Assembly: GCF_030373265.1 (NCBI RefSeq)
Contig: NZ_JAUCZC010000018.1
Coordinates: forward strand, 1-64,000
Reading direction: 5' to 3'
Origin: Blastomonas sp.
GTDB lineage: Bacteria; Pseudomonadota; Alphaproteobacteria; Sphingomonadales; Sphingomonadaceae
DNA: 64,000 bases
Made by a program: the position numbers and the translations under genes. The notes beneath the pieces were generated by a model. That model saw only the letters and a program-made list of their open reading frames with translations. It did no database searches and had not been told where the DNA came from. Below, one piece after another: positions 2,770 through 47,318 of this stretch (positions within the stretch are counted from its first letter, which is position 1; each line of letters opens with the position of its first letter).

Positions 2770-2778
2770 TCCACCAGT

Positions 2779-4005: not shown

Positions 4006-4029
4006 GTCGGCTCGCCCCCTTCTCAGTTG

Positions 4030-5280: not shown

Positions 5281-5535
5281 TTTTCTCTCCATGCAGGCCA
5301 ATGGCAAGGTGGCATGCTTATTGTTGCACGCCAGCTTATGACTCGCAGCGCTTCCACCCAAGAGCCTGCCGTGCCAGGAACAGGCAATGGGTGCCAAAGA
5401 TTTGCAGGAAATGTCACGATCGGCTTTAAGCTGGCTCCTTGTGCCGTGGCAAACGGCGCCTTTCCCCTTAACAATTGCCTTCTAGCCGAACGGGCAAAAT
5501 GTCCGTGTTGTCACCTTTGAGGAGAGGAATGTACC

Positions 5536-9383: not shown

Positions 9384-12300
9384 GCGCAGTCTCCGTTGAG
9401 CGGGATCCATTGTCGGCAGCTTCTTCGGCGACGTCCTCCGCCATATGATCGCGCTTGCGGCTCAGCCACTTGCGGGCCGCGACATAGAACACGGGTGTGA
9501 AGAATATGCCCAGTACAGTTGCAACGATCATGCCGCCCATCACCCCGGTGCCGACTGCGTTGCGGCTGGCGGCACCTGCACCGCTCGCGATCACCAGCGG
9601 CACCATGCCAAGAATGAAGGCAAGGCTGGTCATCAAGATGGGCCGCAGGCGCTGGCGCGCCGCCTCTATCGTCGCCTCGATAAAGCCCTTGTCGGCCTGT
9701 TCATCGGCAATGGCGAACTCGACAATCAGGATGGCATTTTTCGCCGCCAGACCGATGATAGTAATCAGCCCGACATTGAAATAGACGTCGGCCGAAAAGC
9801 CCCGCAGCGTCGTGAAGACAACCGCCCCCAGAACACCGAATGGCACGACCAGCAGCACTGCCAGCGGGATCGGCCAACTTTCATAGAGCGCTGCGAGCAG
9901 CAGGAACACGACGACCATCGACAGACCTAGCAACAGGCCGATCTGCCCCCCTGCCTGCTTTTCCTCAAAGGCGATGCCGGTCCATTCATGCGCCATGTTG
10001 CCTGTCAGAACCTCATCGGCGATGCGTTCCATCTCGATCAGCGCTGCACCGCTTGACTCGCCGGGCGCTGCCTGCCCCGCAATGGTCAGCGCTGCATAGC
10101 CGTTGTAGCGTTCCAGCGCCTGCGGTCCCGATGTCCAGCGCGTCGTGGTGAAGGCCGAGAACGGCACCATCGCGCCGTCTGTGTTGCGAACGCGCAGATT
10201 GCCGACATCGTCATCGGTCATCCGGTTCGCAGCTTCGGACTGCAAATAGACACGCAGGACATTCCCATCACGCACGAAGTCGTTGGCGTATGCCGACCCA
10301 AAGCTGATCGACAGCGTCGCATTGACGTCGGCTATCGACAGGCCAAGCGCACGCGCCTGAATGCGATCAATGTCTACATATAACTGCGGGCCATCGCCTT
10401 GTCCTTCGAGCCTGACGCCTACCAGCAGAGGGCTTTTCGCCGCCCTGGCCAGAATCTCGTTACGGGCCGCTAGCAGGGCTTCGCGATCACCTGAACGGTG
10501 CTCCAGCTTCATCGAAAAGCCAGTGGCATTGCCAAGCGATTGAATGGGCGGCGGGTTGAGTGCAAAAATCGTTGCTTCCGGAATATCCTGCGCAAAGCCG
10601 ATGACCTTGCCGACCAGAGTTTCAGAGCTGTTTTCGGTACCGGCGCGATCTTCCCACGGGGTCAGGTTAACGAAGGACAAGCCGGCCGTCTGGCCTTGTC
10701 CGAAGAAATTGAAGCCACGGATCGATACGACGTCCTTCACCTGCGGCTGCTGGCGCAGGAACGCCTCCGTCTTTTCGATGGCAGCGCCCGTCGTCTGCAA
10801 CGTGCTGCCGGGGGCGGCATCATAGTTCACGAACATATAGCCCTGGTCTTCTGACGGCAGGAAGCCGCCAGGTAACCGCGTAAACAGCAATGCGGTGACG
10901 ACGCAGACAACCGCAAAAACTGCCAGCCAGCGCACCGGCCGCGCGACCATTTTGCCAACGCCGCCGGCATAGCTGTGCGTTGTGCGACTGAAGCGGTCGT
11001 TGAACCAGTTGAAGAACCGCTGCAGATATCCACGCGCACCGGGCTGAGGTGCCGGCATGGCGCCTCCATGATCCCGATCATGGGGCTTGAGCAATGTGGC
11101 GCAGAGCGCAGGCGTGAGAGTTAATGCGAGGACAGCGGAAAAGAAGATCGATACTGCCAACGTCACTGAAAACTGGCGATAGATTCCGCCTGTCGATCCG
11201 GGGAAGAACGCCATCGGAACGAAAACCGCAACCAGCACCAGAGTGATGCCGATGATAGCGCCCGTGATCTGACCCATTGCCTTGACGGTGGCGCGCCTGG
11301 GATTGAGCCCCTCTTCGGCCATGATGCGCTCGACATTCTCGACCACGACAATCGCATCATCCACAAGAATGCCGATGGCCACCACCATGCCGAATAATGA
11401 CAGGGTGTTAATGGAAAAGCCGAATAGCCACAGCCCAAGGCATGCTCCCAGCAGCGCAATAGGCACGACCAAGGCAGGGATGAGCGTTGCGCGCCAGTTT
11501 TGCAGGAACAGGAACATCACCAGGAACACCAGCACCATCGCTTCGATCAGTGTCATGATAACGCTGTCGATGGATGCGTTGATGAAGGGCGTCGTATCAA
11601 AAGGAACCTGCCAGACAATATCCGGGGGGAATGACCGCTCAAGGTCCGCAAGCCGAGCACGCACCGCATCGGCGGTTGCCACCGCATTGGCGCCATTGCC
11701 CAGCTGGATCGCCATGCCGGCGATGTCCTTGCCGTTCAGCGTGGCGTTAAACTGGTAACTGTCGGCGCCCAACTCGACCCGCGCGACATCGCCCAGCCGC
11801 ACGGTAGATCCGTCAGGGTTGGAGCGCAGGATGATCTCGCGAAACTGCTCGGCGCTGGAAAACCGGTTCTGCGTCACGATCTTGGCGCTGAATGCGGTTG
11901 CTTCTGCCAGTGGCTGATCACCGAGCGATCCGCCTGCGGTTTGGCTGTTCTGTTCCTGCACCGCTGCCAGCGCCTCGCTCGATGATAGGCTGTACCCGGC
12001 CAGCTTTTCGGGATCGAGCCATATCCGCATCGCGTATTGCGACCCAAATAACTGGACATCGCCGACCCCCTCGATCCGCCGCAGTTCTTCGACGATATTG
12101 TTCGAAGCGTAATCTCCCAGTTCCAGCGGTGTTGTTTCGCCAGATTTGGAGGTCATGGCCACCAGCATCAGAAAGCCGGCTGATCCCTCCTGTATCTGCA
12201 CGCCCTGGCGGCGCACTTCTTCGGGTAGTCGCGGCTCCACCCGGCTGAGGCGATCTTGAACCTGGGTTCGTGCAACATCCATATCGGTGCCGCTTTCAAA

Positions 12301-32638: not shown

Positions 32639-33391
32639 GTGAACCAATGGCATCTGACACAAGACCTGTCGCTCGAGATATCCAGCGCGACGGATGAGTT
32701 GCATCTTTTTGGTGCGCTTGAAAAAGCGGCGGCGCGAATGAATTTCGATCATTTCGCGCTAGCCTATGACCGCAGGGGGCTTTCGGAACCCGGCAATTTG
32801 CTTGTGCACAATTATCCGGAAAGCTGGGCGACGGTCTACAAGGGGTTTGATCTTAGCAAGGCGGACCCTGTTCGCCGGGCCGGGGAGCGCGCGCTGACGG
32901 GCTTCAGCTGGCAGCAGATCGAGCATTATGTTCCGCTGACGGCCGCAGACCGGCAAATGCTATCCGTTGGCCGTGAAAACGGTCTGGCCGACGGCTATAC
33001 TGTGCCAAGACATCTGGTCGGCGAGGCCAGCGGCAGCTGTACGTTCGTCATCAGCCAGGATCGCGATCTGCCGCAGCATTTCCTCCATACTGCCGAGATC
33101 GTCGGCGCAACGGCGCTTGCCACCGCCCGCCGCATCAGCGGTGCCAAGCAGGTAGAGCCCAGGCCGGTGCTGAGCGAACGACAGCGCGAATGCGTATTGT
33201 GGTCGGCGCGGGGCAAGACAGCCGGCGAAATCGCCGCGATCCTGGGGATCAGCGAGGAAACGGTAGTCCAGCACCTCAAGAATGCGCGCGAGCGGTACGA
33301 TGTCCATGGCCGGCAGATGCTGATCCTGTGCGCGCTGTTCGACGGGCTCATCGGGTTCTCGGATATCTTCGACTGGTGGAATCCAAACTGA
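32639..33391 (+). CDS. LuxR family acyl-homoserine-lactone-responsive regulator
   Basis: This 250-residue protein has an N-terminal autoinducer-binding domain (about 20-165) with the conserved ligand-pocket residues in order: Trp and Tyr in SWATVYKGFDLSKADPV, the Asp-Pro pair, and Trp in GFSWQQIEHY. The C-terminal LuxR HTH (about 180-240) reads LSERQRECVLWSARGKTAGEIAAILGISEETVVQHLKNARERYDVHGRQ. The start is GTG at 32639; no in-frame ATG gives a full domain. It lies 549 bp upstream of and codirectional with luxI, so it is the cognate receptor of the AHL made next door. Neighbouring lasso genes are candidate targets, by inference only. Confidence 0.93.
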   Translation: MNQWHLTQDLSLEISSATDELHLFGALEKAAARMNFDHFALAYDRRGLSEPGNLLVHNYPESWATVYKGFDLSKADPVRRAGERALTGFSWQQIEHYVPLTAADRQMLSVGRENGLADGYTVPRHLVGEASGSCTFVISQDRDLPQHFLHTAEIVGATALATARRISGAKQVEPRPVLSERQRECVLWSARGKTAGEIAAILGISEETVVQHLKNARERYDVHGRQMLILCALFDGLIGFSDIFDWWNPN

Positions 33392-33940
33392 AGGATTTGA
33401 GACATGAGACGCTCTGCAAGGTTTGTTCATCCTATCAGGCGCTCAATTCTGTGCAAAAGCTTGAGGCGAAGGGTCGCGGGGCGGGGAACCCGGCGAAGGC
33501 AATCGCTGCTTACGGAGCGACCCAGAAGATTGAAACTGGGTCGTCACCGGACACGGTCGCAGCCTTGACCTGCTTACCCTCCTTCGGACACCTCCAGGAA
33601 CATCCGGACAAGCTCGATGTCGATGTAGTAGGTCGGCGCTAACATGACACTTTCAACGTGTTAATGAACCTCCGATCATTTTAACACGATAGGGCGCCCA
33701 TTTCAGCGCAATGCCGGTCGCGCGTACGCGAAAATTTGGTTTGATGGGCGTCGCACGACGGAAGCGCCCAAGATAGCACCCACCAGAGCAAGGCCTTTCG
33801 GGCGCGCGTGATCACTCATCCCCAGAGCATCTATAACGGTGACGATATGGGGGCGGCTTAACCCATCCCCTGATCTTGGTATACCGCCCAAATACCGATC
33901 GTGGTCTGGTTTGCAGAACAACAGTTCTGGGAAAACAACC
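33392..33940. other. 549-bp region between luxR and luxI with several dyad symmetries
   Basis: No convincing gene is present. It holds an 8-bp dyad CGACCCAG/CTGGGTCG (33518-33543), an 8-bp dyad CGTGTTAA/TTAACACG with a 16-base spacer (33657-33688), and a lux-box-sized dyad just before luxI. Very short minus-strand ORFs of 23 and 37 codons exist here without recognisable features. The length suggests a separate luxI promoter. Confidence 0.5.
33914..33929. promoter_or_regulatory. Candidate lux-box-like dyad before luxI
   Basis: CAGAACAACAGTTCTG has perfect 6-bp arms and a 4-base centre. It ends 11 bases before the luxI ATG. The position overlaps the expected ribosome site, so it may act as an RNA element or repressor site rather than a classical activating lux box. 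Confidence 0.35.
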
Positions 33941-34564
33941 ATGATCAACGCCATAGCCCGTCTGGAAATTGCGGAAAGCAACTTGGCCATGCGCGCCATG
34001 TTCGCGGCCCGCAAGCAGGTCTTTGTAGACCTTCTGAAATGGGACTTGCCGGTCCTCGAGGGTCAGTTCGAGATCGACCAGTTCGATACCCCCGACGCCC
34101 GCTACCTGATCCTGCTTGGCGCAGACAGGCAGCATCGCGCCTCGGCCCGCCTCCTTCCCACCGCAGGGCCGCATATCCTGGGCGATCTGTATCCCCATTT
34201 GTGCGAGGGCGACGTCCCGCGAGGTCCTCGCATTCTCGAAATCTCGCGCTTCTGCCTCGACCGGAACCAGGATGCTGCGTCGCGTCTGTCGGCCCGCAAT
34301 CAGCTCGTGACCGCGCTGGTTGATCACGCGATCCATGAGCGCATCGACTGTTATACCGGTGTTGCCGAGCTCGGCTGGCTCGCACAGATCCTCCGCTTCG
34401 GCTGGCAGTGCGAGCCGCTCGGGGAGCCGCACGGCAATACAGGGTCGAAAATCGGGGCCCTGCGCATCCAGATCGATGACCAGACACGGGCCAGGCTCGA
34501 GCGCACTGGCATCTATACCCCGTTATCGCTGCAGCTTGTCGAAAGCCGGGAGTCGGTCGCATGA
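33941..34564 (+). CDS. LuxI family acyl-homoserine-lactone synthase
   Basis: This 207-residue protein has the family's conserved residues: Arg and Phe-rich start ARKQVFVDLLKWDLP, Asp residues in GQFEIDQFDTPDARYLILL, and the Arg/Glu site in SARLLPT and GPRILEISRFCLD. It makes an acyl-HSL from SAM and an acyl donor in the cytoplasm. ATG 33941 is chosen over the track start at 33839, since MINAIARLEIAESN precedes the conserved core by the usual distance. It overlaps phyH by 4 bases (ATGA). Acyl-chain length cannot be predicted from this sequence. Confidence 0.94.
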   Translation: MINAIARLEIAESNLAMRAMFAARKQVFVDLLKWDLPVLEGQFEIDQFDTPDARYLILLGADRQHRASARLLPTAGPHILGDLYPHLCEGDVPRGPRILEISRFCLDRNQDAASRLSARNQLVTALVDHAIHERIDCYTGVAELGWLAQILRFGWQCEPLGEPHGNTGSKIGALRIQIDDQTRARLERTGIYTPLSLQLVESRESVA

Positions 34565-35424
34565 ACGCGATGTCGTCCGAAAAGCTAGCCAGTGCGCTGC
34601 TCGATAGAGGCTTTTGCATCGTGCCTGATGTCGTGCCGCGCGCCACCATCGAGGCACTTGCCAGCGATCTCGACCCGGTGTTTGCGGCGACGCCCTTTGG
34701 CCAGGGCAGCTTTTATGGCTACCGAACCAAACGCTTTGGCGGCCTGCTCAAGCTATCGATGCATTCGCATGCACTGGTGCTGGAAAACACCATATTGGCG
34801 GCAGTAAATTCCATCCTTGGCGATGCCTGCGATCGCATCCAGGTCAATGTCGCCCAAGCCATCGAGATCCACCCCGGAGAACGGCGTCAGTTCCCTCACC
34901 GAGACCATGATATGTGGAACGGCGCAAAGGGAGCGCACGAATATCTCGTCAACGTAATCTGGCCACTTACCCCTTTCACTGCAGCCAATGGTGCCACGCA
35001 CATCTATCCCGATAGCCACGGTGCAGACGGCATGGCCCGGCAGGATCTGAGCGAACCGGCTATCGCAGAGTGCGACCCCGGAGCCGCAATCTGTTTCCTG
35101 GGCTCGACCGCGCACGGAGCAGGCGCAAATGTCACCAGCGAGGTCAGGCGCGGGATCGTCATCGGGTACAGCCTGGGCTGGCTGAAGCCCTATGAGAATC
35201 TCTGGCTTGCCTATCCCCCATCGGTAGCCCGGACTTTTCCTCCAGACCTTGCGGCACTGGCAGGCTATGTCCAGCACCGTCCCAACCTGGGCAATTACGA
35301 GGGCCAATGCCCATCCGTTCTTCTCGACGATGTCGTGCCGGAGCATCTCGGTGCCGTCGACGCCCTGCGTCCCGATCAGGAAACGATGCTGGCTGCGTTC
35401 GCCGAGCAGGAGCGGATAAGCTAG
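34561..35424 (+). CDS. Phytanoyl-CoA dioxygenase (PhyH) family protein coupled to luxI
   Basis: This 287-residue protein has a non-haem Fe(II)/2-oxoglutarate oxygenase fold with the iron triad HxD (FPHRDHDMW, about residue 115) and a distal His (FLGSTAHGAGANVTSEVRRGIVIGY), with the 2-oxoglutarate-binding Arg just after. A phyH gene directly downstream of luxI is a recurring arrangement in sphingomonads, suggesting it modifies the acyl-HSL, for example by hydroxylating the chain. That function has been proposed from context and is not proven by sequence. The start overlaps the luxI stop, and the stop overlaps the next GTG start, giving a tight luxI-phyH-gntR operon. Confidence 0.9.
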   Translation: MNAMSSEKLASALLDRGFCIVPDVVPRATIEALASDLDPVFAATPFGQGSFYGYRTKRFGGLLKLSMHSHALVLENTILAAVNSILGDACDRIQVNVAQAIEIHPGERRQFPHRDHDMWNGAKGAHEYLVNVIWPLTPFTAANGATHIYPDSHGADGMARQDLSEPAIAECDPGAAICFLGSTAHGAGANVTSEVRRGIVIGYSLGWLKPYENLWLAYPPSVARTFPPDLAALAGYVQHRPNLGNYEGQCPSVLLDDVVPEHLGAVDALRPDQETMLAAFAEQERIS

Positions 35425-36017
35425 TGAGCCCGGCGCATGTCATCGAACCGACCTATGAAGCGATCAAGCGCCGATTGATGCATGGCCACTGGCCGCAGGG
35501 AACGCGGCTGGAGGCTGCAAGGATTGCAGACCTGCTGCATGTCAGCATCACACCTGTGCGCGACAGCCTGTACCGGCTGACGGGCGAACGGATGGTCGAC
35601 TTTACGCATGGCGTGGGATTTCATGCTCCGCGGATGACCGAAGGCGATTTGCGCAGCATGCTGGAGCTGCATCTTGTGCTGATGCTGGCAGCGCTGGCGA
35701 CGCAAGTGCGCGGTTCAATCACGCCAGTGGGCCGGTTGGACGAAGGATCGGACGGATTTGGTACGCTGTTCCTTTCGATCGCCCGGCGCTCGGGCAATGG
35801 GGAGCTTGCAAGCTGCATTGCTGGCCTCGGTGCCCGGCTCCATATCGCCCGTCTCGCCGACGCCGAGATACTCGGCGACACGACTGACGAACTCAGCGAT
35901 CTTGAAGCGGCCTATGCCAACGACCCAGCCCACCCCGAAGTCCGAGCGCTGTTGCTGCGTTACCATGAACGGCGCGCGCAAGACGCTGCTGCCTATATCC
36001 GGCATATCACTGCCTGA
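35424..36017 (+). CDS. GntR family transcriptional regulator
   Basis: This 197-residue protein has an N-terminal winged HTH of GntR type (PTYEAIKRRLMHGHWPQGTRLEAARIADLLHVSITPVRDSLYRLTGERMVDFTHGVGFHAPRMTEGDLRSMLELH). A short helical C-terminal domain resembling FCD follows, but without an obvious full metal-binding His set. The GTG start at 35424 shares a base with the phyH stop (TAGTG), so it is the third gene of the luxI operon. The track start at 35307 lies inside phyH. It may tune this operon or the adjacent lasso genes; no operator was identified. Confidence 0.85.
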   Translation: MSPAHVIEPTYEAIKRRLMHGHWPQGTRLEAARIADLLHVSITPVRDSLYRLTGERMVDFTHGVGFHAPRMTEGDLRSMLELHLVLMLAALATQVRGSITPVGRLDEGSDGFGTLFLSIARRSGNGELASCIAGLGARLHIARLADAEILGDTTDELSDLEAAYANDPAHPEVRALLLRYHERRAQDAAAYIRHITA

Positions 36018-36273: not shown

Positions 36274-36903
36274 GTGCCGTGCGGGTACTGCTGCGTGTCT
36301 TCGCCAAAATGGAAAAGCCTTTCTTCTGAACGTCACCCGTTCTCGGTGTCATCGGCATGCCACGCCCATCCGGACGACCGTCCGGTTCAAAGCGAACCAG
36401 CATCGCGCGAGACAAGTGATCTAGACGCAGCGTTTCGGGAACATGCCGCAGCGCTGCTCCAGTTTCTGCGTCGCAAGGCGAGCCCGCAGGAAGCGCCCGA
36501 TCTGGTGCAGGAGGTGTTCGCAAGGGCAGCAGGCAGCGCCCAGAGGCACAGCTTGGTCAACCCCGGCGGCTTTCTCCGTCGCATCGCCCAGAACCTGCTG
36601 ATCGACCGATCGCGCAAGGTTCATCGGCATGGGGCGCCTGAGGTGTCGTTCTGCGAAGAACGGGATTTTGCCGCGCCCCCACAGCAGGAATGGAGCATGG
36701 AAGCGGCTGATCTGATGAGTTTGTACGAAGCAGCCGTGGATTCGATGTCACCCAGAACGCGCGAGGTTTTTCTGATGCACCGGGTCGACGAACTGACCTA
36801 TCGGGAGATACACGAGCATCTGGGAATCAGCGTTGCAACGGTGGAATATCACATGATGAAGGCGCTCGCGCATATCGCGCAGGCCGTGGACTATACACGA
36901 TGA
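36274..36903 (+). CDS. FecI-like ECF sigma factor for the lasso uptake genes
   Basis: Core residues match ECF sigma factors: region 2 (AFREHAAALLQFLRRKASPQEAPDLVQEVFARAAG, then NPGGFLRRIAQNLLIDRSRK) and region 4 (MSPRTREVFLMHRVDELTYREIHEHLGISVATVEYHMMKALAHIA). No ATG lies in frame upstream of the domain; the start could be GTG at 36274, 36295 or 36346, none with a good ribosome site, so the first about 50 residues are uncertain. The stop overlaps fecR by 4 bases. In FecIRA systems the sigma factor is released when the outer-membrane receptor binds its ligand; here the receptor, isopeptidase and possibly the lasso operon are likely targets. Confidence 0.88.
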   Translation: MPCGYCCVSSPKWKSLSSERHPFSVSSACHAHPDDRPVQSEPASRETSDLDAAFREHAAALLQFLRRKASPQEAPDLVQEVFARAAGSAQRHSLVNPGGFLRRIAQNLLIDRSRKVHRHGAPEVSFCEERDFAAPPQQEWSMEAADLMSLYEAAVDSMSPRTREVFLMHRVDELTYREIHEHLGISVATVEYHMMKALAHIAQAVDYTR

Positions 36904-37910
36904 CGCACGATCACCGCGATGATGCAATCGATGACGCTGCGCGCGCCTGGCTGATCAAGATGCGGGGTCCGGACGCCCACCAGCTGCGTCACGAGTTCGA
37001 GACTTGGCATAATGCCGACTCTGCGCACAAGGCAGCCTATGAGCGGGCCGAAGCTATCATGGCGCAGTCCGCTATCCTGAAGGGCTCTATGCGACATGGC
37101 CGGGCGCGCAAGTCTCGGCCTGCCGCTCAACGACCTGTCATGCAGCGATGGCTGACCGCCGGTGCGCTGGCAGCCGCAGCGGCCATGCTATTTCTGGCGA
37201 TCAGTGCCGGAGGTGCTTCCCTTTCCGGTGCCAATGGCCAAAATCCGATAGCCGCCTGGGCTGCCGAGCCTCTGATGACAAGGCACGGCGAAATCAGGAG
37301 CTTTCGGCTTGATGACGGATCCGTTGTCACGCTCGATACCGACAGCCGCCTCGACGTGGCGTTGAGCGATAATGCAAGGGTCGTGAAGCTTGGCAGAGGC
37401 CGGGCACGCCTGCAGATCGCCACTGACGCGCGGCCATTCCGCATTCTGGCAGGGGCTGGCGAGGTCACCACCACGCAAGCCTTACTCGATATCGGTTATG
37501 ACTACGACGGCATGATCGGCGTCACTCTGTCCAATGGCGCGGCGGTAATTGCACCGACTGGTCGGAACACCTCCAAATCCGTAATCCGCCAGCTTCCTGC
37601 AGCAACGCCCCTGGCATATCGCGCCGATGATGCCGGGCTGAGGCTTCGGGCACGGTCGCCAATCTATGGCGACAGTGAATGGCCGTCTGGCTGGGCAGAA
37701 TATCGCACGGTCAGGCTCGACCAGCTGGTGGCCGCAGCCAATCGATATGCGGCGGTTCCGATCAAAATCGAGGACCCTGCCATCGCCCGCCTCGAAGCGT
37801 CCGGCCGTTTCAGGATAAGCCAGACGGATACCTTCGTCAGGCGCCTTGCACAGCTGTTCGATCTTGCCATCGAGCGCAGGGCCAACGGAATATATCTGCA
37901 ACGGCGATAA
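36900..37910 (+). CDS. FecR-like anti-sigma factor / signal transducer
   Basis: This 336-residue protein has an N-terminal cytoplasmic DUF4880-like segment (DDAARAWLIKMRGPDAHQLRHEFETWHNADSAHKAAYERAE). One transmembrane helix follows (WLTAGALAAAAAMLFLAISAGG, about 80-105). The periplasmic FecR domain reads TRHGEIRSFRLDDGSVVTLDTDSRLDVALSDNARVVKLGRGRARL, and the C-terminal region with LDQLVAAANRYAAVPIKIED and FRISQTDTFVRRLAQLFDLAIERR contacts the receptor's STN domain. The order FecI-FecR-TonB receptor with STN is the standard cell-surface signalling layout, here tied to a lasso peptide. Confidence 0.93.
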   Translation: MTHDHRDDAIDDAARAWLIKMRGPDAHQLRHEFETWHNADSAHKAAYERAEAIMAQSAILKGSMRHGRARKSRPAAQRPVMQRWLTAGALAAAAAMLFLAISAGGASLSGANGQNPIAAWAAEPLMTRHGEIRSFRLDDGSVVTLDTDSRLDVALSDNARVVKLGRGRARLQIATDARPFRILAGAGEVTTTQALLDIGYDYDGMIGVTLSNGAAVIAPTGRNTSKSVIRQLPAATPLAYRADDAGLRLRARSPIYGDSEWPSGWAEYRTVRLDQLVAAANRYAAVPIKIEDPAIARLEASGRFRISQTDTFVRRLAQLFDLAIERRANGIYLQRR

Positions 37911-37953: not shown

Positions 37954-38008
37954 TCCCCCTTCAAAGGCCGTGTGTCTCCTCGACAAGCGGCCCCAAACCG
38001 AAGGGGGA
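37954..38008 (+). promoter_or_regulatory. Inverted repeat that could sequester the receptor's ribosome site
   Basis: TCCCCCTTC (37954-37962) and GAAGGGGGA (38000-38008) are perfect 9-base complements 37 bases apart. The right arm is the purine-rich ribosome-binding region just before the ATG at 38014. A leader hairpin could limit receptor translation; this is inference. Confidence 0.35.
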
Positions 38009-38013
38009 TCAGG

Positions 38014-40557
38014 ATGATGTCAGGAAAATCACAGGTGATGCGCGCGCTGATGGCCAGCGTGGCGCTGGGGCTTATGCCAGGTGCTGCACATGCCCAGCAG
38101 CAGGAAAAGATGGTCTACGACCAGCCAGCGCAGGATCTTGGCGACGCGCTGCGCAATGTGGCCACGCGAGCCGGAATCGAACTCTACGCTTCGGCGGATG
38201 ATCTTGAAGGTCTTCAGGCGCCTGCCCTGAAGGGTGATCTGACAACACGGGAAGCCATTGAGGCCCTGTTGCGTGGCACCCGCCTCGTTGCGCGGTTTGA
38301 ACGGGGGTCGGTGACGATCGGACGCGCTGAAGGCAGGCGCGCCGATGAAGCCGGCTCGCAATCCGATCCCATCATCGTGACGGGATCACGCATCAAGGGT
38401 GCGCCTTCGGCCGTTCCGGTGACGACGGTGACAAGCGAGGACATCCGCAATGCCGGTCAGAATGATCTTGGCGAAGTGGCACGCAGCCTTCCCCAGAACT
38501 TCGGTGGGGGTCAAAACCCGGGCATCGGCAACACTCAAGGCGCTGCCAACGAGAACGTCAACGTCAATGGTGCATCGACATTCAATCTTCGCGGCATTGG
38601 GCCCAATGCGACGTTGACACTGATCAATGGCAACCGTTTTGCCTTCAGCGGGGTCAATTCGGTCATCGATGTGAGCGCAATTCCCGTGGCTGCGGTCGAG
38701 CGTGTCGAGGTGATCGCCGACGGGGCCTCGGCGATTTACGGCGCAGATGCGGTGGCGGGCGTCGTCAACATCATCCTGCGGCGAAGCTATGATGGCGTAT
38801 CAACCAGCGCGCGCGTTGGCGGATCGACCGATGGCGGCAATTTCCAGCAGCAATTCAGCGTTCTGGCCGGCAAGAGCTGGTCGACCGGCGGGGTGCTGGC
38901 TGCTTATGATGTCAGCAGCAATTCTTCGATCCAGGCCGGGTCGCGCAGCTATGCAGTCTCGAATAATCCGGATGCCACCCTATTTCCCGACCTGCGTCGG
39001 CACGCCGTTCTTATCAGCGCCCACCAGGCTTTTGGTGATCGCGTCGAACTGAGCGCCGACGCCATTTTCAAGACGGGCAGACAGATCGCGGCCTCGGGCT
39101 TCTCGGCCACAGTGCCGATCACCACCTCTGGTAACCAGGTTCGCACCGATTTCGAGACATTCGGAATTGCTCCGAAAATCGTCGTTGATCTGTCGGACGA
39201 CTGGACCTTCGAGATCCTCGGCTTTTATGGCACCGACACAACCGATGGTCTTACCCGGATTTTTTCCGGAGGCATTCAGACGAGCACCGCCCCACGATAT
39301 TTCTTCAACCGGAATTTCTCGGTTGAGGCGGGGCTTCAGGGCGCGCTGTTCGAGCTGCCTGGAGGGCCCGCCCGGATTGCAGCGGGCGCTGGTTACCGTT
39401 CCAGCTTTTTCGAGGCGAGGCTTGGCGGCAGGGCGTTCGACCAGCTTCGTAAAAACTATTTTGCCTATGGGGAGCTGTATGTGCCGCTCACCAGCCCGGA
39501 ACAGGGCGTCGCGCTTGCGCACCGGGCATCGCTCACCGGCGCGCTGCGCTATGAGGACAACTCGGATTCGGGCGATATCGTCACTCCCAAGGTCGGCATG
39601 ATCTACGAGCCGGTAGCCGGGCTGACCTTTGGCATCTCATGGGGCAAATCGTTCAAGCTGCCGACGCTCTTTCAGCAATATACGGGCTATTCAGCAGTTC
39701 TGGTGCCGGTTGGCGGCTTCGGACAGGGTTTTCCGGCGAGCTCGACGCTCGCGGTTGCCCAGGGGGCCAGCGAGATGCTGGGGCCTGAGCGCTCGGAGAA
39801 CTGGACCTTCAGCGCGACGGTGAAACCGGCAGGCGGTCTGGAGCTGTCCGCTGCCTATTTTCATATCGACTATACGGACCGGGTAACACCTCCGCTGCCC
39901 TCAGGCGCTGGCGCGCTCAATAACCCGATCTTCGCAGATCTCATCACATTCAATCCGTCAGCAGCCTTGCTCGATGCACTGTTCAGCGGCGCAAATGGCG
40001 GGCTACAGAATGGGACTGGCGCTCCCTATGACCCGCAGCGGGTGATTGCGCTTCTCGATGCACGCACCCGCAATATTGCCCAACAGACCTACAGCGGCGT
40101 CGATGTGTCGGCACGATACGACCTTGAGACTGGCCCGGGTCAGCGGCTCTCGCTGAGCGGCGGCGGTACATGGATGGAAAGCAGCCAGCGTCTTCTTCCC
40201 GGCCTGCCCGTGACCGAACTGGCCGGAAACATATTCTTTCCGCCGCATATTCGCGCGCGGGCCGGGGCGACGTACAGCACAAAGCGGCTTTCGCTTTCCA
40301 CCTTCGTCAACCATAGCGGCAGCGTGACCGATAATCGCAGACCGGTTCAGACCAAGCTGTCTTCATTCACCACCCTGGATCTGACGGCGCGTCTGACGCT
40401 GGGGACAGGGACCGAGATCGCGGTCAACGCCCTCAACATTCTCAACGAGAAGCCCGATCGCATCTTCACGGCGGCCGCGTTCGACGCAGCATTTGATTCA
40501 ACCAATTACTCGGCGGTCGGACGCTTCCTCGGCCTGACGATACGTCATGACTGGTAA
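38014..40557 (+). CDS. TonB-dependent receptor with STN domain, predicted lasso peptide uptake/signalling
   Basis: This 847-residue protein has a signal peptide (LMASVALGLMPGAAHA). An STN/secretin-TonB N-terminal domain (about 30-105: VYDQPAQDLGDALRNVATRAGIELYASADDLEG) signals to FecR. The TonB box region (DPIIVTGSRI), plug (STFNLRGIGPNATLTLINGNRF and VERVEVIADGASAIYGADAVAGVVNIILR) and a 22-strand barrel ending in the aromatic-terminal VGRFLGLTIRHDW follow. ATG 38014 follows AAGGGGGATCAGG. It is located between fecR and the isopeptidase, an arrangement found in isopeptidase-type lasso clusters, where it is thought to import the lasso peptide for cleavage. The stop overlaps the isopeptidase start region. 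Confidence 0.93.
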   Translation: MMSGKSQVMRALMASVALGLMPGAAHAQQQEKMVYDQPAQDLGDALRNVATRAGIELYASADDLEGLQAPALKGDLTTREAIEALLRGTRLVARFERGSVTIGRAEGRRADEAGSQSDPIIVTGSRIKGAPSAVPVTTVTSEDIRNAGQNDLGEVARSLPQNFGGGQNPGIGNTQGAANENVNVNGASTFNLRGIGPNATLTLINGNRFAFSGVNSVIDVSAIPVAAVERVEVIADGASAIYGADAVAGVVNIILRRSYDGVSTSARVGGSTDGGNFQQQFSVLAGKSWSTGGVLAAYDVSSNSSIQAGSRSYAVSNNPDATLFPDLRRHAVLISAHQAFGDRVELSADAIFKTGRQIAASGFSATVPITTSGNQVRTDFETFGIAPKIVVDLSDDWTFEILGFYGTDTTDGLTRIFSGGIQTSTAPRYFFNRNFSVEAGLQGALFELPGGPARIAAGAGYRSSFFEARLGGRAFDQLRKNYFAYGELYVPLTSPEQGVALAHRASLTGALRYEDNSDSGDIVTPKVGMIYEPVAGLTFGISWGKSFKLPTLFQQYTGYSAVLVPVGGFGQGFPASSTLAVAQGASEMLGPERSENWTFSATVKPAGGLELSAAYFHIDYTDRVTPPLPSGAGALNNPIFADLITFNPSAALLDALFSGANGGLQNGTGAPYDPQRVIALLDARTRNIAQQTYSGVDVSARYDLETGPGQRLSLSGGGTWMESSQRLLPGLPVTELAGNIFFPPHIRARAGATYSTKRLSLSTFVNHSGSVTDNRRPVQTKLSSFTTLDLTARLTLGTGTEIAVNALNILNEKPDRIFTAAAFDAAFDSTNYSAVGRFLGLTIRHDW

Positions 40558-42775
40558 GCCGCGCATGATCCGTACAGGGACAACAGTCTGGTCACTGTTT
40601 GCTGGCATGTCGTTGATCGCCCTGCCGAGTGCAGCGGGGGGTATGGAACCCAATCGCTATTGGTCGGCGGAAGATATTGTTACGGTTCCAAAAGTCATCT
40701 CGCTTGCGCTGTCATCCGATGGAAAGGATCTGGCCTATATCGAAAAGGTGGCCGATCTCCGGGAGAACCGAACGCTTTACATCGTGTACCATCTGGATTT
40801 GGCTACCCGGGTGCGAAAAGAGATCGTGCGTGCCGCTTCCGCTGACCATCTCAAGGCGATCGCGGGCGCCAGAGAGTGGAATGTGCTGCTTGACCTTGGT
40901 CAAGGGCAGCAGCTTTATCGGATTGACGCGAGATTGAATGTCGGACTCGTCGTCGCGAATGAGGACAATGTTCAGGTCGGACAGACAGAAGGTGGTTTGT
41001 TTGCGGTTACGAATAACGCGCCGCACAGGGTCGGCGTGTTAGGATATGACTGGTCCCCGGATCGCAAATGGTTGTGGTATACTGCACTTAAGCCGACAAT
41101 CGACCGCCCTCAGCTGAAGCGGGACGACGATGTCATAGCTCAAAAGCACAGGCGCCGTGCACCGGTCAGTGCGATGGTCGAACTGCGCCTGCGGTCGCCA
41201 ACGGGTGAAGACATACTTGTTGCAACACGTCCTACGAAAGACCGTCTTGCCTTCTATTTCGCCGGCACCGTGAAATGGACCAAAGATGGCTTACGCTATT
41301 ACGTCGAAACCACATCCGGCACACAAAGCGATGAATCTGAAGCCTTTGAACTGAAGTTCGGATCAACGGCCAGCATGTCAGTTGGAAAACAGCAAGGTCT
41401 ACCTTCGGTTGATTTTGTCCGAGGGCCTCGCGGGGGCCTCCTCGCCAGCAGCGGATTGGGAACGGCGTTCGAATTGGTCGAGACCCAGGCCAGCGCTCCG
41501 CAACACAGTTACGGCAAGTATCCTTTCTATGTGGGGGATCCACGGGCCGCGGCAAGCTGGCGCTCTACCGATGGTCAGAGAACAGTTCTTGGAATGCGGA
41601 CGACCAAGCATCCGCGCTACGGATTGGCGCTTGTGACCTTACGCGGCGTGCGACCGATCTTGACCAATGGAAGTCTGACCCGGTGCGATTTTCGTGCGGA
41701 CGTGGACTGGGGCGTCTGTGTCGAAGAGTCGATGACACAATCACCTAGGCTGGTCAGGGTTAAGCCCGGCACCGGCACGGTCGACAACATCATCGAACTT
41801 TCCGCGCGACACCAAGCTGTAACACCCTTGCGCACAACGGCACATACATGGACCAATCGACATGGGCTCAATACAACAGGGTTCATCGTCTGGCCCCGCG
41901 GGTTTGAAAGGGGTCAGAAATATCCTGCCATTGTCGTTACGCACGGAAGCGATGCCGACGAGCGTTTTGCCGAACAGGACTTCCAATGGGATTATCCCGT
42001 TCAGCTTTGGGCAGAGCGTGGATACATGGTCGTTCTCGTAAATGAACCGTCCCCGAGGCAGGATCCGGCCTTGATGGCGGCCTATGCCCAGTGGCGGGCT
42101 GGGCGTGGCGAACTGACACCTGAAGAACTTCAGCGCCATGTCTGGCTGAACGTTATTGATACCCTGGAAGATGTTGTTGGCCAGATGGCAAAAGAAGGCG
42201 CGTTGGATGTCACACGCGTTGGCATCGCAGGATATAGCCGCGGTTCTCAGATTGCGAATGTTGCAGTGACGCAATCTGGTCTGTTCAAAGCCGCGTCCAG
42301 TGGCGATGGCAGTTTCCTCGAGCCTGCAGCCTATCATGAAGCGATCCGCTCCTATACCGCCATCTTCGGGGGGCCGCCTGTAGGTGAAAATCTGCCAAAC
42401 TACCGGCGCCTTTCGCCATCGCTACGCGCAGATCGTGTGTGCGCGCCGGTGCTCCACCAAATGGCGGCCCCGTTCGCAGGGGCAATAGATTTCCATTTGG
42501 CGCTGCGATCTGCGCGCGTTCCGGCCCAGATCGGCCTTTATCCCGGCGAGACTGCTGCAACGGATGAAACGCATCTGTTTCACATTCCCTCCAACCGCCT
42601 TCAGGCTATGCGCGAAAACCTTGCCTGGTTCGATTTCTGGCTACGCGGCGAGCGTGACCGCGATTTTGAATTCCCGGATGATTTTGACCGATGGGCGCGA
42701 ATGGCGGAGGATCTGCCGGAAAGGTGCCGACTCCAGCCTCTAAGCAACGCGGCGGATGCGTCGGTCATCAAATAG
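40547..42775 (+). CDS. Lasso peptide isopeptidase (Atxe2/SpI-IsoP-like S9 prolyl-oligopeptidase relative)
   Basis: This protein of about 742 residues has a signal-like N-terminus (TTVWSLFAGMSLIALPSAAGG). A beta-propeller (about 30-450) is followed by an alpha/beta-hydrolase domain with the nucleophile elbow IAGYSRGSQIANVAV (Ser near 561) and a late His (ETHLFHIPS). The family hydrolyses the isopeptide bond of lasso peptides and opens them to linear form, which distinguishes it from ordinary S9 peptidases by context: FecIR-TonB receptor on one side and lasso genes C-B-A facing it. The acidic triad residue is not obvious in the stretch PVLHQMAAPFAGAIDFH. Start ATG 40547 overlaps the receptor stop; Met7 (40565) is an alternative. 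The 3' end overlaps lasso gene C by 8 bases. Confidence 0.9.
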   Translation: MTGKPRMIRTGTTVWSLFAGMSLIALPSAAGGMEPNRYWSAEDIVTVPKVISLALSSDGKDLAYIEKVADLRENRTLYIVYHLDLATRVRKEIVRAASADHLKAIAGAREWNVLLDLGQGQQLYRIDARLNVGLVVANEDNVQVGQTEGGLFAVTNNAPHRVGVLGYDWSPDRKWLWYTALKPTIDRPQLKRDDDVIAQKHRRRAPVSAMVELRLRSPTGEDILVATRPTKDRLAFYFAGTVKWTKDGLRYYVETTSGTQSDESEAFELKFGSTASMSVGKQQGLPSVDFVRGPRGGLLASSGLGTAFELVETQASAPQHSYGKYPFYVGDPRAAASWRSTDGQRTVLGMRTTKHPRYGLALVTLRGVRPILTNGSLTRCDFRADVDWGVCVEESMTQSPRLVRVKPGTGTVDNIIELSARHQAVTPLRTTAHTWTNRHGLNTTGFIVWPRGFERGQKYPAIVVTHGSDADERFAEQDFQWDYPVQLWAERGYMVVLVNEPSPRQDPALMAAYAQWRAGRGELTPEELQRHVWLNVIDTLEDVVGQMAKEGALDVTRVGIAGYSRGSQIANVAVTQSGLFKAASSGDGSFLEPAAYHEAIRSYTAIFGGPPVGENLPNYRRLSPSLRADRVCAPVLHQMAAPFAGAIDFHLALRSARVPAQIGLYPGETAATDETHLFHIPSNRLQAMRENLAWFDFWLRGERDRDFEFPDDFDRWARMAEDLPERCRLQPLSNAADASVIK

Positions 42776-44489
42776 CATTGCTCCACCATCGTGCCCACGT
42801 CTCGGCAGCGCATAATGTGAGTATTCGTCTCGCCCTGTTTGATCCATCTGGGGTTGGTTGTCCGGCTCCATCAAAGATAGAAAGGTCCAGCATCCCGGCT
42901 TTTGCAAGCATGCCGCCACGCAGCATGTCCTCTGCTTTACGGCCTTGCGATTGGTATATCTTCCGCATGAACCCGGACGGTCCACCCTTTGAAGTTCGCT
43001 GCAGCAGTTCTTGTGGAACGATACCTTCAAAGGCTGCTCGGGCAACTGCCCTGTTTTTGCCCTCATTAACCCATAGCCATGTTGGGATTGCGAGGCACAG
43101 CTCGATAATCGGCTGAGACAGCAATGGAGCAATGTGGATCGGGTGAGTCTTGCGCGGATAAAGCTCAATGCTGCGTTGTGCGCGGATGAGCTGCTTTACA
43201 TGCCCAATTTTGCCCGGAAGCGCATTTTTCGGAACGTCGAGCCAGGGATGGAGCGACCGATCAGGCACAAGTGTTTCGCTCATTGATTTTGACAGGCCAG
43301 ATGTGTCGCTGGCGATACGCGGTGCATGGCCGGCCCGCCTGTAAATGTCCCACGCATGGCGCAGAATTGTCATACCGTCGGCACCCGTCAGGACACTGAG
43401 ATCCCGCAAGGTAGTCATGACGCCGGAGCGGGATCCTTGAGACAGGAACCGGTCCACGAACGGTGCAGCTGTGCGCAAGCTGCAGAACACATTATCACCG
43501 CCATTGCCTGAGAAATGTGCCTCGATGTGATGGTTGGCACGAAATTGCGAATGTATGGCTGCGATGGACTGCATGAAATAGGGCGCAACCGGCCATGGAT
43601 GGTGCCGAGCGACCGGCTCTTCGACATCCACTGATGACAAGGCGTAATGTCGTTCATGCAACGGACGATCCAGCACTGTTGCCAGCCTGGCAGCGTAGCT
43701 TCGTTCATCCCCGTGCGGATCATTGCTGACCAGATTGAGGCAGTGCAGCATGGTGTGGGGCTGCACTGTGCAAGCGACGATCGAAGAATCGAGCCCGCCG
43801 GAGACGCCGAGCAGGATCGACTCGAAGCACCCTCCCCAGGAACGAACACAATTGGTTGTGACGCGGCGAAGCTTTGCGGCAGCAGCATCAAAATGTATCT
43901 GTTGGCCTGGATCTGTCCAACGCCATGGTGTCCACCACACGCTCAGGGAAGTTCCTGCAGTCGACCTCGTGATGCATTCTCCAGCCAGAAGTTCCGAAAT
44001 GCCAGTAAGGCAGGTGTCGCGCCCGATTGCATCGAGGCTGATCAGAAGCCGTCCGACCTGTTCGAAGTTGACAGCTCCCGGCCCGCGAGTTGCAAGGTCC
44101 TCGACATCGCTGCCAAGGATCAGACTGCCGGATTTGGAGCGATAATAGCATGGCAGTTGCCCGGACGGATCGCGCAGCACGGACACTGTGCCGCCATCTC
44201 CAACAATAACGGCAACATAAGCCCCCCAAAAATCTGTGAGTAGCGATCGGCCTTCGCTCGCCAGAATTGCCTGTACAGTTACGTCATCAAGTTCCGTTAT
44301 GCGGCGGCTTAGCTGGACGCCTTCAAACAGGTGACCGATGATGCAGCCGTGATCACCGATCCGGATCACGGGAGTATCGCTCCAGACGCGCACTGCAGGA
44401 TCAACAAATGCGGGGCAACCCTTGGTTGGAGCAGCTCCGGCTCCAGCTTCGCTGCCCGATGACAATTCAATACGAAAATGTCCGGCCAT
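42768..44489 (-). CDS. Lasso peptide macrolactam synthetase (asparagine synthetase-like, gene C)
   Basis: This 573-residue protein has an N-terminal amidotransferase-like domain lacking the Cys2 of true asparagine synthetases (starts MAGHFRIEL). The C-terminal AsnB-like domain has the PP-loop LLGVSGGLDSSIVACTVQ (about residue 225), which adenylates the Asp/Glu side chain of the core so that the free N-terminal amine closes the ring. Further AsnB-type motifs are YAARLATVLDRPLHERHYAL and EAHFSGNGGDNVFCSL. The ATG at 44489 shares a base with the stop of gene B (TAATG), so B and C are coupled. It is convergent with the isopeptidase gene. Confidence 0.92.
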   Translation of the reverse strand: MAGHFRIELSSGSEAGAGAAPTKGCPAFVDPAVRVWSDTPVIRIGDHGCIIGHLFEGVQLSRRITELDDVTVQAILASEGRSLLTDFWGAYVAVIVGDGGTVSVLRDPSGQLPCYYRSKSGSLILGSDVEDLATRGPGAVNFEQVGRLLISLDAIGRDTCLTGISELLAGECITRSTAGTSLSVWWTPWRWTDPGQQIHFDAAAAKLRRVTTNCVRSWGGCFESILLGVSGGLDSSIVACTVQPHTMLHCLNLVSNDPHGDERSYAARLATVLDRPLHERHYALSSVDVEEPVARHHPWPVAPYFMQSIAAIHSQFRANHHIEAHFSGNGGDNVFCSLRTAAPFVDRFLSQGSRSGVMTTLRDLSVLTGADGMTILRHAWDIYRRAGHAPRIASDTSGLSKSMSETLVPDRSLHPWLDVPKNALPGKIGHVKQLIRAQRSIELYPRKTHPIHIAPLLSQPIIELCLAIPTWLWVNEGKNRAVARAAFEGIVPQELLQRTSKGGPSGFMRKIYQSQGRKAEDMLRGGMLAKAGMLDLSIFDGAGQPTPDGSNRARRILTLCAAETWARWWSNAI

Positions 44490-45133
44490 TACACGACCAG
44501 AATGGGTTTGTAGGTGGTGACGAGGTCAAGCGGGTCTGTCAGGACTGTGGAACCGAACTGGACCCAGCAATGGGCTGAGAATGGCAATGCTACCCCGATT
44601 ATGAGGTCAACATGGCAACCCTGACGGGCGAGCATGCATTTCATTGCGATCCCCCGAACCAGACACTTGTCGATACCAGAGGTAAAGCGGCCTGCCCGCT
44701 GGAAAGCTGCTGCCGCGCGAGCGGCAACCAGAAGTTCTTCCGGCCTGGCGGGCAAGCTGGTTGATGCAATTCGGCTGAAAACCTGTGCGAGAGGGCGTCG
44801 CTTGAGCATCAGTTCCGCACAGGCCTGATATAAGATGGCCTTCGCTGTGAGCCTGAGAGGCGCGGGCTGGATATCATTCTCGATGACACTGAAGAGAGGC
44901 GTTTCAACCTGGAGCTTTCGCTCTGCCGAGTCTGCCGGGCCGGCTTGTATGATGCTTCGCGACTGCAGCCAGGCAAGGTCCGAGACATCTGCGCAACCGG
45001 ACACGAAGCGCTGGAACCGAGCGTCGGCATCCTTGTGCAACAGAAAGTAGCGATCAGAATCGAGGTCGAGAAACACCGAGCATGATCCCAATGTGCAGAA
45101 GTGCAGGTGCGGAGAGAGCCGATATCCCATCAT
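44489..45133 (-). CDS. Lasso peptide leader peptidase with fused RRE (gene B, B1-B2 fusion)
   Basis: This 214-residue protein has an N-terminal about 80 residues that form a RiPP recognition element/PqqD-like domain (GYRLSPHLHFCTLGSCSVFLDLDSDRYFLL), which binds the leader peptide. The C-terminal transglutaminase-like cysteine protease (B2) shows Cys in GIDKCLVRGIAMKCML, His in FSAHCWVQFG and Asp in TDPLDLVTTYKPILVV, which cleave the leader. Proteobacterial lasso clusters usually have the fused form seen here. The track start at 45163 is TTG; ATG 45133 fits family N-termini better, though no strong ribosome site is seen. It lies 56 bp after the precursor gene on the same strand. Confidence 0.92.
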   Translation of the reverse strand: MMGYRLSPHLHFCTLGSCSVFLDLDSDRYFLLHKDADARFQRFVSGCADVSDLAWLQSRSIIQAGPADSAERKLQVETPLFSVIENDIQPAPLRLTAKAILYQACAELMLKRRPLAQVFSRIASTSLPARPEELLVAARAAAAFQRAGRFTSGIDKCLVRGIAMKCMLARQGCHVDLIIGVALPFSAHCWVQFGSTVLTDPLDLVTTYKPILVV

Positions 45134-45189
45134 GACAGGCTTGCGATCAGCAATGGCGTGCAACCATCAGGCTGCACGCCACTGGCTGT

Positions 45190-45333
45190 TCAGTCGTCGG
45201 ACTCGATACCGCCAACGAAGATACGCTGCCCCGTCTGGACATCGTCGTTGCCGAGGATCGAGGCACCGCGGGTTTCGTCCTGGACAGCGCCCAGATCGAT
45301 GACGTCGTCATGCTGAGGTTCAAACGAGTTCAT
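45190..45333 (-). CDS. Lasso peptide precursor (gene A), 47 residues, missed by the ORF track
   Basis: ATG 45333 has AAAGGA at good spacing and encodes 47 residues. The leader MNSFEPQHDDVIDLGAVQDE ends with Thr-Arg, placing the conserved Thr at position -2 before a Gly, the rule for lasso precursors. The predicted core is 25 residues. It begins GASILGNDD, so the Gly1 amine can close on Asp8 or Asp9 (8- or 9-membered ring). It ends FVGGIESDD, closely resembling the GGI...DD tails of sphingonodin- and sphingopyxin-type lasso peptides from sphingomonads. Candidate steric plugs are Ile16, Phe17 and Arg15. Genes B and C follow directly. No exporter (D) gene is present, as is usual in isopeptidase-type clusters. 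Confidence 0.9.
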   Translation of the reverse strand: MNSFEPQHDDVIDLGAVQDETRGASILGNDDVQTGQRIFVGGIESDD

Positions 45334-45409: not shown

Positions 45410-45426
45410 TTATAATCCGATTATAA
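45410..45426. promoter_or_regulatory. AT-rich palindrome upstream of the lasso precursor gene
   Basis: TTATAATCCGATTATAA has perfect 8-bp arms around one base and lies 77 bp upstream of the precursor ATG. It contains TATAAT on both strands and could be a promoter -10 region, an operator, or both. Confidence 0.4.
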
Positions 45427-45532
45427 TTGAGACTGGCTGATCTAAAACGTGACCGAGCAATAGGAAACGCACGTCGGATGCACGTACTGACACCTTTAGC
45501 GGTACGCCTGGACATGCGTGTCAGAACCCGGT

Positions 45533-45559
45533 CACACGCTGATATTACATCAGCGTGTG
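45533..45559. repeat. Strong 11-bp inverted repeat near the lasso/integrase boundary
   Basis: CACACGCTGAT and ATCAGCGTGTG are perfect complements separated by ATTAC. No T-run follows on either strand, so it is not a typical terminator; it may be a protein-binding or recombination-related site. Confidence 0.45.
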
Positions 45560-45933: not shown

Positions 45934-47097
45934 TCAGCTTTCCTTATCGCAGTAGGCGGCCCATCCCGCCATCATGACGCGCCTCTTCTCCAGCAGGTTG
46001 CCGCGCCGGTAAGCTGCCTCAGTCTTATTTGCCACCACGTGCGCCAACGCCGCTTCGGCAACATCACTGGGATGATCCGTTTCCTCGCTCACCCAATCGC
46101 GAAACGACGAGCGAAACCCGTGCGGTGTGTACGGCTGGCCCATCTCCTTCATCAGCTTGGACAGGGTCATGTCGGACAGTGGCTGCATATTTTTGAAGCC
46201 CGGAAATACATACGGCGACTCCCGAAGGCGCAGTTGCTTGCAGCGGCGCAGAATACGCATTGGCCGGGAGGCCAGAGGGACAACATGCTCACGAAATGCC
46301 TTCATCCGTTCCTTGGGGAGGGTCCAGAGGCCGTCTTCGAGTTCGACCTCATCCCAGGTCATGCCGCGCACTTCGCCCGACCGGGCAGCCGTGAAGATGG
46401 CAAACTCCAGCGCCAGACGGCTGAACGATTCTCGTGAACGCAACTTCTGGACGAATTTGGGCACCTTCTCATAGGGCATGGCAGGAAAGTGGCCATCACG
46501 GCGAGGCTGGCGCGGCAAGCCTTTGGTGATAGCCCGCATCGGCGCCTCGGTATCGCGATAACCGGATGCATAGGCCCAATCGAGCACCACGCCGACCCGC
46601 TGCCGGACCCTGCGTGCCGTTTCTGGCTTGGTCAGCCAGATCTCGGCCAGAAGGTCACGGATCATGGGCCCCGTGATCCGGTCAACCTTCATTTTCCCGA
46701 TGAAAGGAAAGGCATAGGCTTCCAGAGTTCGCATCCATTGGCCGTGGTGCTTGCCATTGCGCCAGGTCTTCGAGTGAACCTCATAGACCCGCTGCGCAGC
46801 GTCCTTGAAGGTGGGCACGGCATCGACCTTTCGCCGCTCGAACTGCGGGTCGAGGCCCATCTCGATCTGGCTTCGCACCTCGCGCGCCCGTTCGCGAGCA
46901 TCAACCAGGCTCACCTTGCTGCAGCTACCCAGGCCGAAATCTCTCCGGTCGCCCTTGTGCTGCACCCGGCAAACCCAGCTGCTGCTCCCTCCCGGCCTCT
47001 CGTAGCGATAAAGGCCATCACCAAACCCTACTCGGCGGGTGGTCTGGCTCTTGGTTTCAGAGCCTGTCTTCGAAGTGGTTTTCATGGAGGTGATCAT
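45934..47097 (-). CDS. Tyrosine-type site-specific integrase (P4-like)
   Basis: This protein of about 387 residues has an N-terminal arm-binding DUF4102-like domain (GFGDGLYRYERPGGSSSWVCRVQHKGDRRDFGLGSCSKVSLVDARERARE), a core-binding SAM-like domain, and a catalytic domain with Arg in FTAARSGEVRGMTW, HxxR in TPHGFRSSFRDWVSE, His in AALAHVVANKTEAAY and the nucleophile Tyr in EAAYRRGNLLEKRR. The track start at 47148 is GTG; ATG 47097 (MITSMKTT) or 47085 is more likely. It lies next to the 3' end of tRNA-Ser(CGA), the usual target of this class, and should catalyse integration and excision of the island. No excisionase was recognised. Confidence 0.93.
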   Translation of the reverse strand: MITSMKTTSKTGSETKSQTTRRVGFGDGLYRYERPGGSSSWVCRVQHKGDRRDFGLGSCSKVSLVDARERAREVRSQIEMGLDPQFERRKVDAVPTFKDAAQRVYEVHSKTWRNGKHHGQWMRTLEAYAFPFIGKMKVDRITGPMIRDLLAEIWLTKPETARRVRQRVGVVLDWAYASGYRDTEAPMRAITKGLPRQPRRDGHFPAMPYEKVPKFVQKLRSRESFSRLALEFAIFTAARSGEVRGMTWDEVELEDGLWTLPKERMKAFREHVVPLASRPMRILRRCKQLRLRESPYVFPGFKNMQPLSDMTLSKLMKEMGQPYTPHGFRSSFRDWVSEETDHPSDVAEAALAHVVANKTEAAYRRGNLLEKRRVMMAGWAAYCDKES

Positions 47098-47227
47098 AAA
47101 ATTTGTTCCCACATTTGCAAAAATGTCGGTCTGGACGACGTGGGACACATTTGGATCCGAATCACCAGCGTAACCCGCAGGAAAGCTGGACGTCTGGAGC
47201 CAGTCAGGGATTTTGTGGGATTAGTAC

Positions 47228-47318
<91 letters not shown>

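Follow-up and report, generated by a model that had tools for sequence, protein, structure and literature searches.

A short open reading frame in a Blastomonas sp. genome raises the question of whether it encodes a genuine lasso peptide precursor, which of two adjacent aspartates would close the ring of its product, and how its core and the genes around it came together. The window analysed here is the first 64,000 nucleotides of contig NZ_JAUCZC010000018.1. A sequence-only reading had placed a 47-codon frame at 45190-45333, and these limits proved exact; the strand, which it had omitted, is minus.

The precursor gene and its neighbours

Translation of the minus strand at 45190-45333 gives a product, here termed A, that consists of a leader, MNSFEPQHDDVIDLGAVQDETR, and a 25-residue core, GASILGNDDVQTGQRIFVGGIESDD. 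The leader is predicted to end in Glu-Thr-Arg, followed by Gly as core residue 1. The Thr at leader position -2 is invariant in aligned relatives and, together with Gly1, gives the pattern expected of a lasso precursor, as does an acid within core positions 7-9, which A carries as Asp at both 8 and 9. A scores above cut-off against NCBIfam NF033522, 'benenodin family lasso peptide' (36.1 bits, cut-off 33), and against Pfam PF24178, 'Subterisin' (37.1 bits, cut-off 27), and shares the leader pattern and length of this benenodin/subterisin family. Full-length relatives sit at the equivalent place both in related genomes and on one plasmid, with 68-74% identity across all 47 residues within the genus and 77% identity to WP_150126168.1 (Blastomonas sp. 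RAC04, plasmid pBSY18_2), which RefSeq names 'benenodin family lasso peptide'. Because both models score above cut-off, B and C genes lie downstream on the same strand and full-length relatives occupy the same position, A is not a chance open reading frame.

The curated-model scores and orthologues support the earlier proposal of a lasso precursor cut after Thr-Arg and before Gly, a cleavage site that is predicted. The gene had also been called unannotated, which holds for this record but not for the kind, given the annotated 77% identical relative. No identical core was found in 401 family genomes, the class sample, the plasmid collection or the literature searched, in keeping with the suggestion that the peptide may be a new member, and a PDB sequence search with the precursor returned no match. 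By these comparisons, A is a genuine and apparently undescribed member of a known lasso family. The features of the cluster are as follows.

45190..45333, minus strand: lasso precursor gene A, 47 aa (leader 45268-45333, core 45193-45267); translation, NF033522 and PF24178 above cut-off, orthologues
45144..45192, minus strand: A-B intergenic hairpin that overlaps the stop codon of A and ends before the likely B start; -34.6 kcal/mol, z -6.2
44489..45130, minus strand: B protein, 213 aa, fused RRE and Cys protease; lasso_biosyn_B2, Transglut_core3, RRE fold match to 5v1v and 6jx3
42768..44489, minus strand: C protein, macrolactam synthetase (asparagine-synthetase-like), 573 aa; PF00733, SGGLDSS at residue 230
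40547..42775, plus strand: lasso isopeptidase, S9 family, 742 aa; 5jrk match, GYSRGS and DETHLF present
37972..40557, plus strand: TonB-dependent receptor (TBDR) with STN domain; Plug, barrel and STN domains
36900..37910, plus strand: FecR-like anti-sigma regulator; PF04773
36274..36903, plus strand: FecI-like ECF sigma factor; Sigma70 regions 2 and 4
35307..36017, plus strand: GntR-family regulator, true start maybe further in; PF00392
34561..35424, plus strand: phytanoyl-CoA dioxygenase family protein (PhyH); PF05721, kept with the cluster on two plasmids
33839..34564, plus strand: acyl-homoserine-lactone synthase (LuxI); PF00765, kept with the cluster
32639..33391, plus strand: LuxR-family regulator with autoinducer-binding domain; PF03472, PF00196

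B scores 73.1 bits against the lasso_biosyn_B2 cut-off of 33, and a motif check found the expected protease Cys, His and Asp. Of its two candidate starts, the ATG at 45130 is more plausible than the TTG at 45163, because annotated relatives are 213 residues long and begin at that ATG. Fold comparison used the N-terminal domain only; the protease half modelled poorly (mean pLDDT 49). Prediction confidence was fair to high for the first 67 residues, whose best solved matches are 5v1v and 6jx3, lasso B1 proteins with bound leader (probabilities 1.00 and 0.99); with E-values of 0.03, this RRE fold match is suggestive. Modelling and motifs together point to a lasso B protein that combines a leader-binding RRE with a cysteine protease domain. 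The adjacent cyclase, C, scores 82.8 bits against the Asn_synthase PF00733 cut-off of 21, and the isopeptidase aligns with PDB 5jrk over residues 8-731 (E 3e-200, 670 bits) and with AtxE2 at E 2e-20. Both fall below their NCBIfam equivalog cut-offs (C, 54 versus 525 bits for NF033535; isopeptidase, 164.9 versus 400 bits for NF033523, the Atxe2 family), which places them on a divergent branch.

We regard 5jrk as the isopeptidase of the sphingopyxin I cluster (Fage et al. 2016), and its alignment along residues 8-731 is one point of likeness between that cluster and the window. The precursor from genome G368 shares with A the DLGA leader, Gly6, Asp9, the GGI-DD tail and the upstream RNA described below. 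It differs in that its core is only about half identical to that of A, and its B and C are approximately 35-40% identical to the window copies. We assume that its core is the sphingopyxin I core and that the sphingopyxin I ring has nine residues.

The A-B-C operon lies on one strand (minus) and faces the FecI-FecR-TonB receptor-isopeptidase genes, with a GntR gene nearby and no ABC transporter in the cluster; this is the isopeptidase-type architecture as described in PMC9266682. The hairpin between A and B spans 49 nt, and nine relatives can form a similar stem although its sequence has changed; a hairpin of this type is mentioned in connection with astexin-1 production in PMC7549694.

The LuxR, LuxI, PhyH and GntR genes (32639-36017) remain linked to the lasso cluster in several genomes as well as on two plasmids, pBSY18_2 and Sphingopyxis indica pMC4, where their order also matches. 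This linkage suggests that they belong to the regulation of the lasso cluster.

Ring size of the predicted lasso

The sequence-only reading had regarded ring size, eight or nine, as ambiguous since both Asp8 and Asp9 have suitable spacing, a view that is weakly supported by the close relatives of A. Position 9 is Asp in all 11 of the closest distinct precursors, while position 8 in the same set is D, E, E, D, D, P, Q, Q, V, R and I. An acid at position 7 or 8 is absent from six of the 11, so in those six only Asp9 could close a ring of seven to nine residues. An invariant Asp9 beside a variable position 8 favours a nine-residue ring for A, and Gly6, the invariant Asp9 and the unconserved position 8 together place A in a sphingopyxin-like clade with predicted nine-residue rings.

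Closure at Asp8, which would give the eight-residue ring that most benenodin/subterisin relatives seem to have, is improbable in our estimation. Asp8 is present in A and an acid occupies position 8 in most members of the wider family, and the nine-residue ring favoured for A sets it apart from them; the preference for nine is thus drawn from the close clade and falls short of proof. Against an Asp8 ring, however, the close clade keeps Asp9 without exception but has D, E, P, Q, V, R or I at position 8, and six of its members have no other acid at positions 7-9. The choice between Asp8 and Asp9 therefore appears largely settled in favour of a nine-residue ring.

The probable mobile island and cassette exchange

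Two features beyond A bear on how the cluster reached this genome.

45934..47148, minus strand: tyrosine integrase; PF00589, PF22022, PF13356
47229..47318, minus strand: tRNA-Ser (CGA), probable island insertion site; homology starts at 47228 in other Blastomonas-group genomes

Homology to other genomes of the genus begins at 47228 or slightly inside, that is, at the end of the tRNA-Ser gene, as expected for insertion at a tRNA. A second copy of the tRNA 3' end, which would mark the far boundary, was not found in the window. In four of nine genus-sample genomes, neither a receptor match at E<=1e-100 nor a convincing match to the precursor was obtained. The lasso cluster thus probably sits on a mobile island inserted at tRNA-Ser in a Blastomonas-group genome. 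Residence on a mobile island, and the lack of receptor and precursor matches in those four genomes by these searches, would also suit a cluster that is decaying or carried silently and yields no product. We consider this very improbable, since all cluster genes are intact open frames and the leader Thr(-2) and Asp9 are kept, as are the motifs searched for in B, C and the isopeptidase, the hairpin between A and B, and the upstream RNA.

The same genome holds a second lasso-like cluster (locus L033, contig C6), likewise next to an integrase. Its candidate precursor matched no Pfam family.

7806-7922, plus strand: candidate precursor, 38 aa, MKQDNRNRLIRLGSIRRDTK+AIVTAGQQEEFLPILSYQ; core would begin with Ala and carry Glu at positions 9 and 10
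7919-8608: B
8595-10361: C
638-3772: receptor
3822-6254: S9 peptidase
7050-7730: GntR-like ORF
10365-11639, minus strand: integrase

We compared the window with two sister islands, one in genome G340 and one on pBSY18_2 of RAC04. A block with a history of its own emerged.

40565..45249, no strand: exchanged cassette, from isopeptidase codon 7 through C and B to A core codon 7; identity steps, tree tests

DNA identity between the window and G340 is approximately 92% on either side but approximately 64% from isopeptidase codon 6 to core codon 6, and both edges are sharp and lie inside genes (isopeptidase codon 6 and core codon 6-7). Around A, identical positions number 140/150 in the 150 nt upstream, 62/66 in the leader and 18/18 in ring codons 1-6, versus 35/57 in core codons 7-25. 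Identity at four-fold silent sites is 85% for FecI, 74% for FecR and 79% for the TBDR outside the block, versus 36% for the isopeptidase, 41% for C and 36% for B inside it. No identity step crosses the block genes in the G340-RAC04 pair, nor between G340 and G159, a genome from the genus group to which the window's genome also belongs. Trees tell the same story: the grouping of window, G340 and RAC04 has 99/99 support for the TBDR and FecR, and AU tests reject it for the isopeptidase (p 1e-59), C (1e-52) and B (8e-5). The pBSY18_2 cluster agrees with the window in gene order from LuxR to A, in its receptor (95% identical) and FecI (96%), and in an identical leader and ring residues 1-6, but it carries another cassette type, differing in the core from residue 7 onwards and in B (50%), C (61%) and the isopeptidase (63%).

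The simplest account of these data is replacement of a single block by homologous recombination, in which core codon 7 onwards, B, C and the isopeptidase would be foreign; no donor was found among the genomes compared. The core of A is best read as a mosaic, its leader and ring residues 1-6 common to the sister strains and the rest derived from a different B-C-isopeptidase cassette. Such a pattern might also arise if no exchange had occurred and the core-B-C-isopeptidase block diverged fast under diversifying selection next to a constrained receptor, as these functionally coupled parts could co-evolve. We give this scenario very little credence, because silent sites fall too (from 79% in the TBDR to 36% in the isopeptidase) at sharp edges within two genes, the same genes show no such drop between G340 and G159 or RAC04, and the sister grouping is rejected for isopeptidase, C and B. 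Replacement in one block also fits PMC9266682, according to which isopeptidases cleave only their cognate lasso and read its loop: here loop, tail and isopeptidase moved together.

The upstream RNA element and the proposed mechanism

When distant clusters are compared, the DNA approximately 110-205 nt before A is conserved above most genes. Two features lie in the region upstream of A.

45447..45537, minus strand: conserved three-way-junction RNA, approximately 90 nt; covariation in 24 and in 74 sequences, no Rfam match
45410..45426, no strand: AT-rich perfect palindrome TTATAATCCGATTATAA between the RNA and A; sole copy in the window, 0.04 expected

RNAalifold on 24 copies, from which chance regular-expression matches to the motif were excluded, returned a three-way junction with compensatory change in 15 of 24 pairs. 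With this structure specified, 91.6% of cells pair (81.3% in shuffles), and the covariation score of 0.422, against 0.234, was reached by none of 500 shuffles, while slid versions gave at most 0.14. For 74 distinct covariance-model copies, pairing is 93.7% and the score 0.603 against 0.221, in an alignment that is fitted to the structure and hence biased toward it. The strand of A is favoured by G-U pairs, one of which occurs in 21 of 23 alignment rows. An Rfam search with the window copy at E<=10 gave no match to the element. We have little doubt that the RNA structure is real and lies below any Rfam threshold. The same search returned a match to the snoRNA TtnuCD24 (E 9.7), outside the element, which was rejected as chance.

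The RNA model, R1, matches 156 of 391 family genomes (E<=0.01) and 34 of 367 class-sample genomes, that of the window included (E<=0.001). Among 77 lasso precursors of the sphingomonad family, at least 25 have a copy on the same strand 199-258 nt upstream of A, measured between match starts. At least 24 other clusters carry the RNA at their far, FecI-receptor end instead, on the opposite strand and approximately 9-12 kb distant; in most inspected cases the FecI match starts approximately 110-210 nt after it. In at least two precursors the RNA is elsewhere nearby, and at most 26 have none among the matches listed. Other copies precede unrelated accessory genes, so the element need not be a lasso-specific leader. 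At L193 (5648-6064, minus strand) and L225 (1296-1730, plus strand), related proteins of approximately 140 residues with a TGNA-WQLSRRGWH-PTIRNARGSD pattern are encoded approximately 250-300 nt after an RNA copy.

Five relatives of the RNA (L198, L199, L230, L231 and L234) align over the whole sRNA-Xcc1 model RF02221, at positions 1-87 and in the same strand and register, with 29-37 bits. The lengths are similar, but all five fall below the gathering score (the best reaches 37.2 bits against a threshold of 53), and the alignments shown pass over the inner loop. Alignment across the full model at such scores makes a distant common family likely, short of establishing it, and hints that these relatives and sRNA-Xcc1 may form one wider RNA clan.

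On balance we lean towards an alphaproteobacterial RNA family outside Rfam, distantly related to sRNA-Xcc1 and with an approximately 90-nt three-way junction and a conserved ATGTCCA-GG..CTAAAG loop, that would regulate sphingomonad lasso clusters in cis; the RNA would then stand ahead of the precursor operon in some clusters and ahead of the FecI-receptor-isopeptidase operon in others. That the element is instead an independent, sRNA-Xcc1-like trans-acting sRNA carried on mobile DNA, and no lasso operon leader, is possible, and we rate it on the doubtful side. The five sub-threshold alignments, the T run after the closing stem in Blastomonas and Sphingopyxis copies and the copies before many unrelated genes speak for it, as does the nature of sRNA-Xcc1, a mapped 88-nt sRNA (PMC2996969) found upstream of symE in integron cassettes (PMC12444791). 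A trans-acting role sits less well with the fixed place and strand of the RNA in lasso clusters, either 199-258 nt before A (at least 25 cases) or before FecI, and with the absence of any Rfam match to the window copy. The palindrome TTATAATCCGATTATAA is partly conserved in relatives and is a possible operator for the GntR-like regulator, or a promoter part. No promoter was recognised upstream of A by a simple sigma-70 scan.

Taken together, we consider it quite probable that a complete isopeptidase-type cluster, a Gly1-Asp9 lasso, cassette exchange and an RNA leader jointly explain this locus. The genes, their homology, the conservation of Asp9, the mosaic structure and the RNA covariation are observed directly in the sequences, whereas we infer cleavage, ring closure, threading, uptake and RNA function as follows. 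The RRE domain of B would bind the leader and B would cut after Thr-Arg. C would then activate Asp9, giving a nine-residue Gly1-Asp9 macrolactam that would close around a threaded 16-residue tail. The isopeptidase would later open the lasso, and the opened product would presumably enter through the adjacent TonB receptor and be sensed by FecI/FecR. Homologous recombination would have brought in everything from core codon 7 through B and C to the isopeptidase as a single specificity cassette, while the RNA element, promoter region, leader, ring residues 1-6, receptor and regulators stayed where they were. The upstream RNA would most likely be a cis-regulatory leader of the lasso operon.

The biological role of the lasso class is still called enigmatic in PMC9266682. 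A adds one more predicted core to that class; what is unusual here is the mosaic origin of the core and enzymes, and the RNA. The mosaic amounts to a natural experiment on the role of lasso peptides, in which the loop, processing enzymes and isopeptidase moved while the receptor and sensor stayed, so that receptor specificity becomes directly testable against two cassette types. If the RNA controls expression, it would be a regulatory input to isopeptidase-type clusters that the available parts of the reviews do not mention, and it might explain when often silent lasso clusters switch on.
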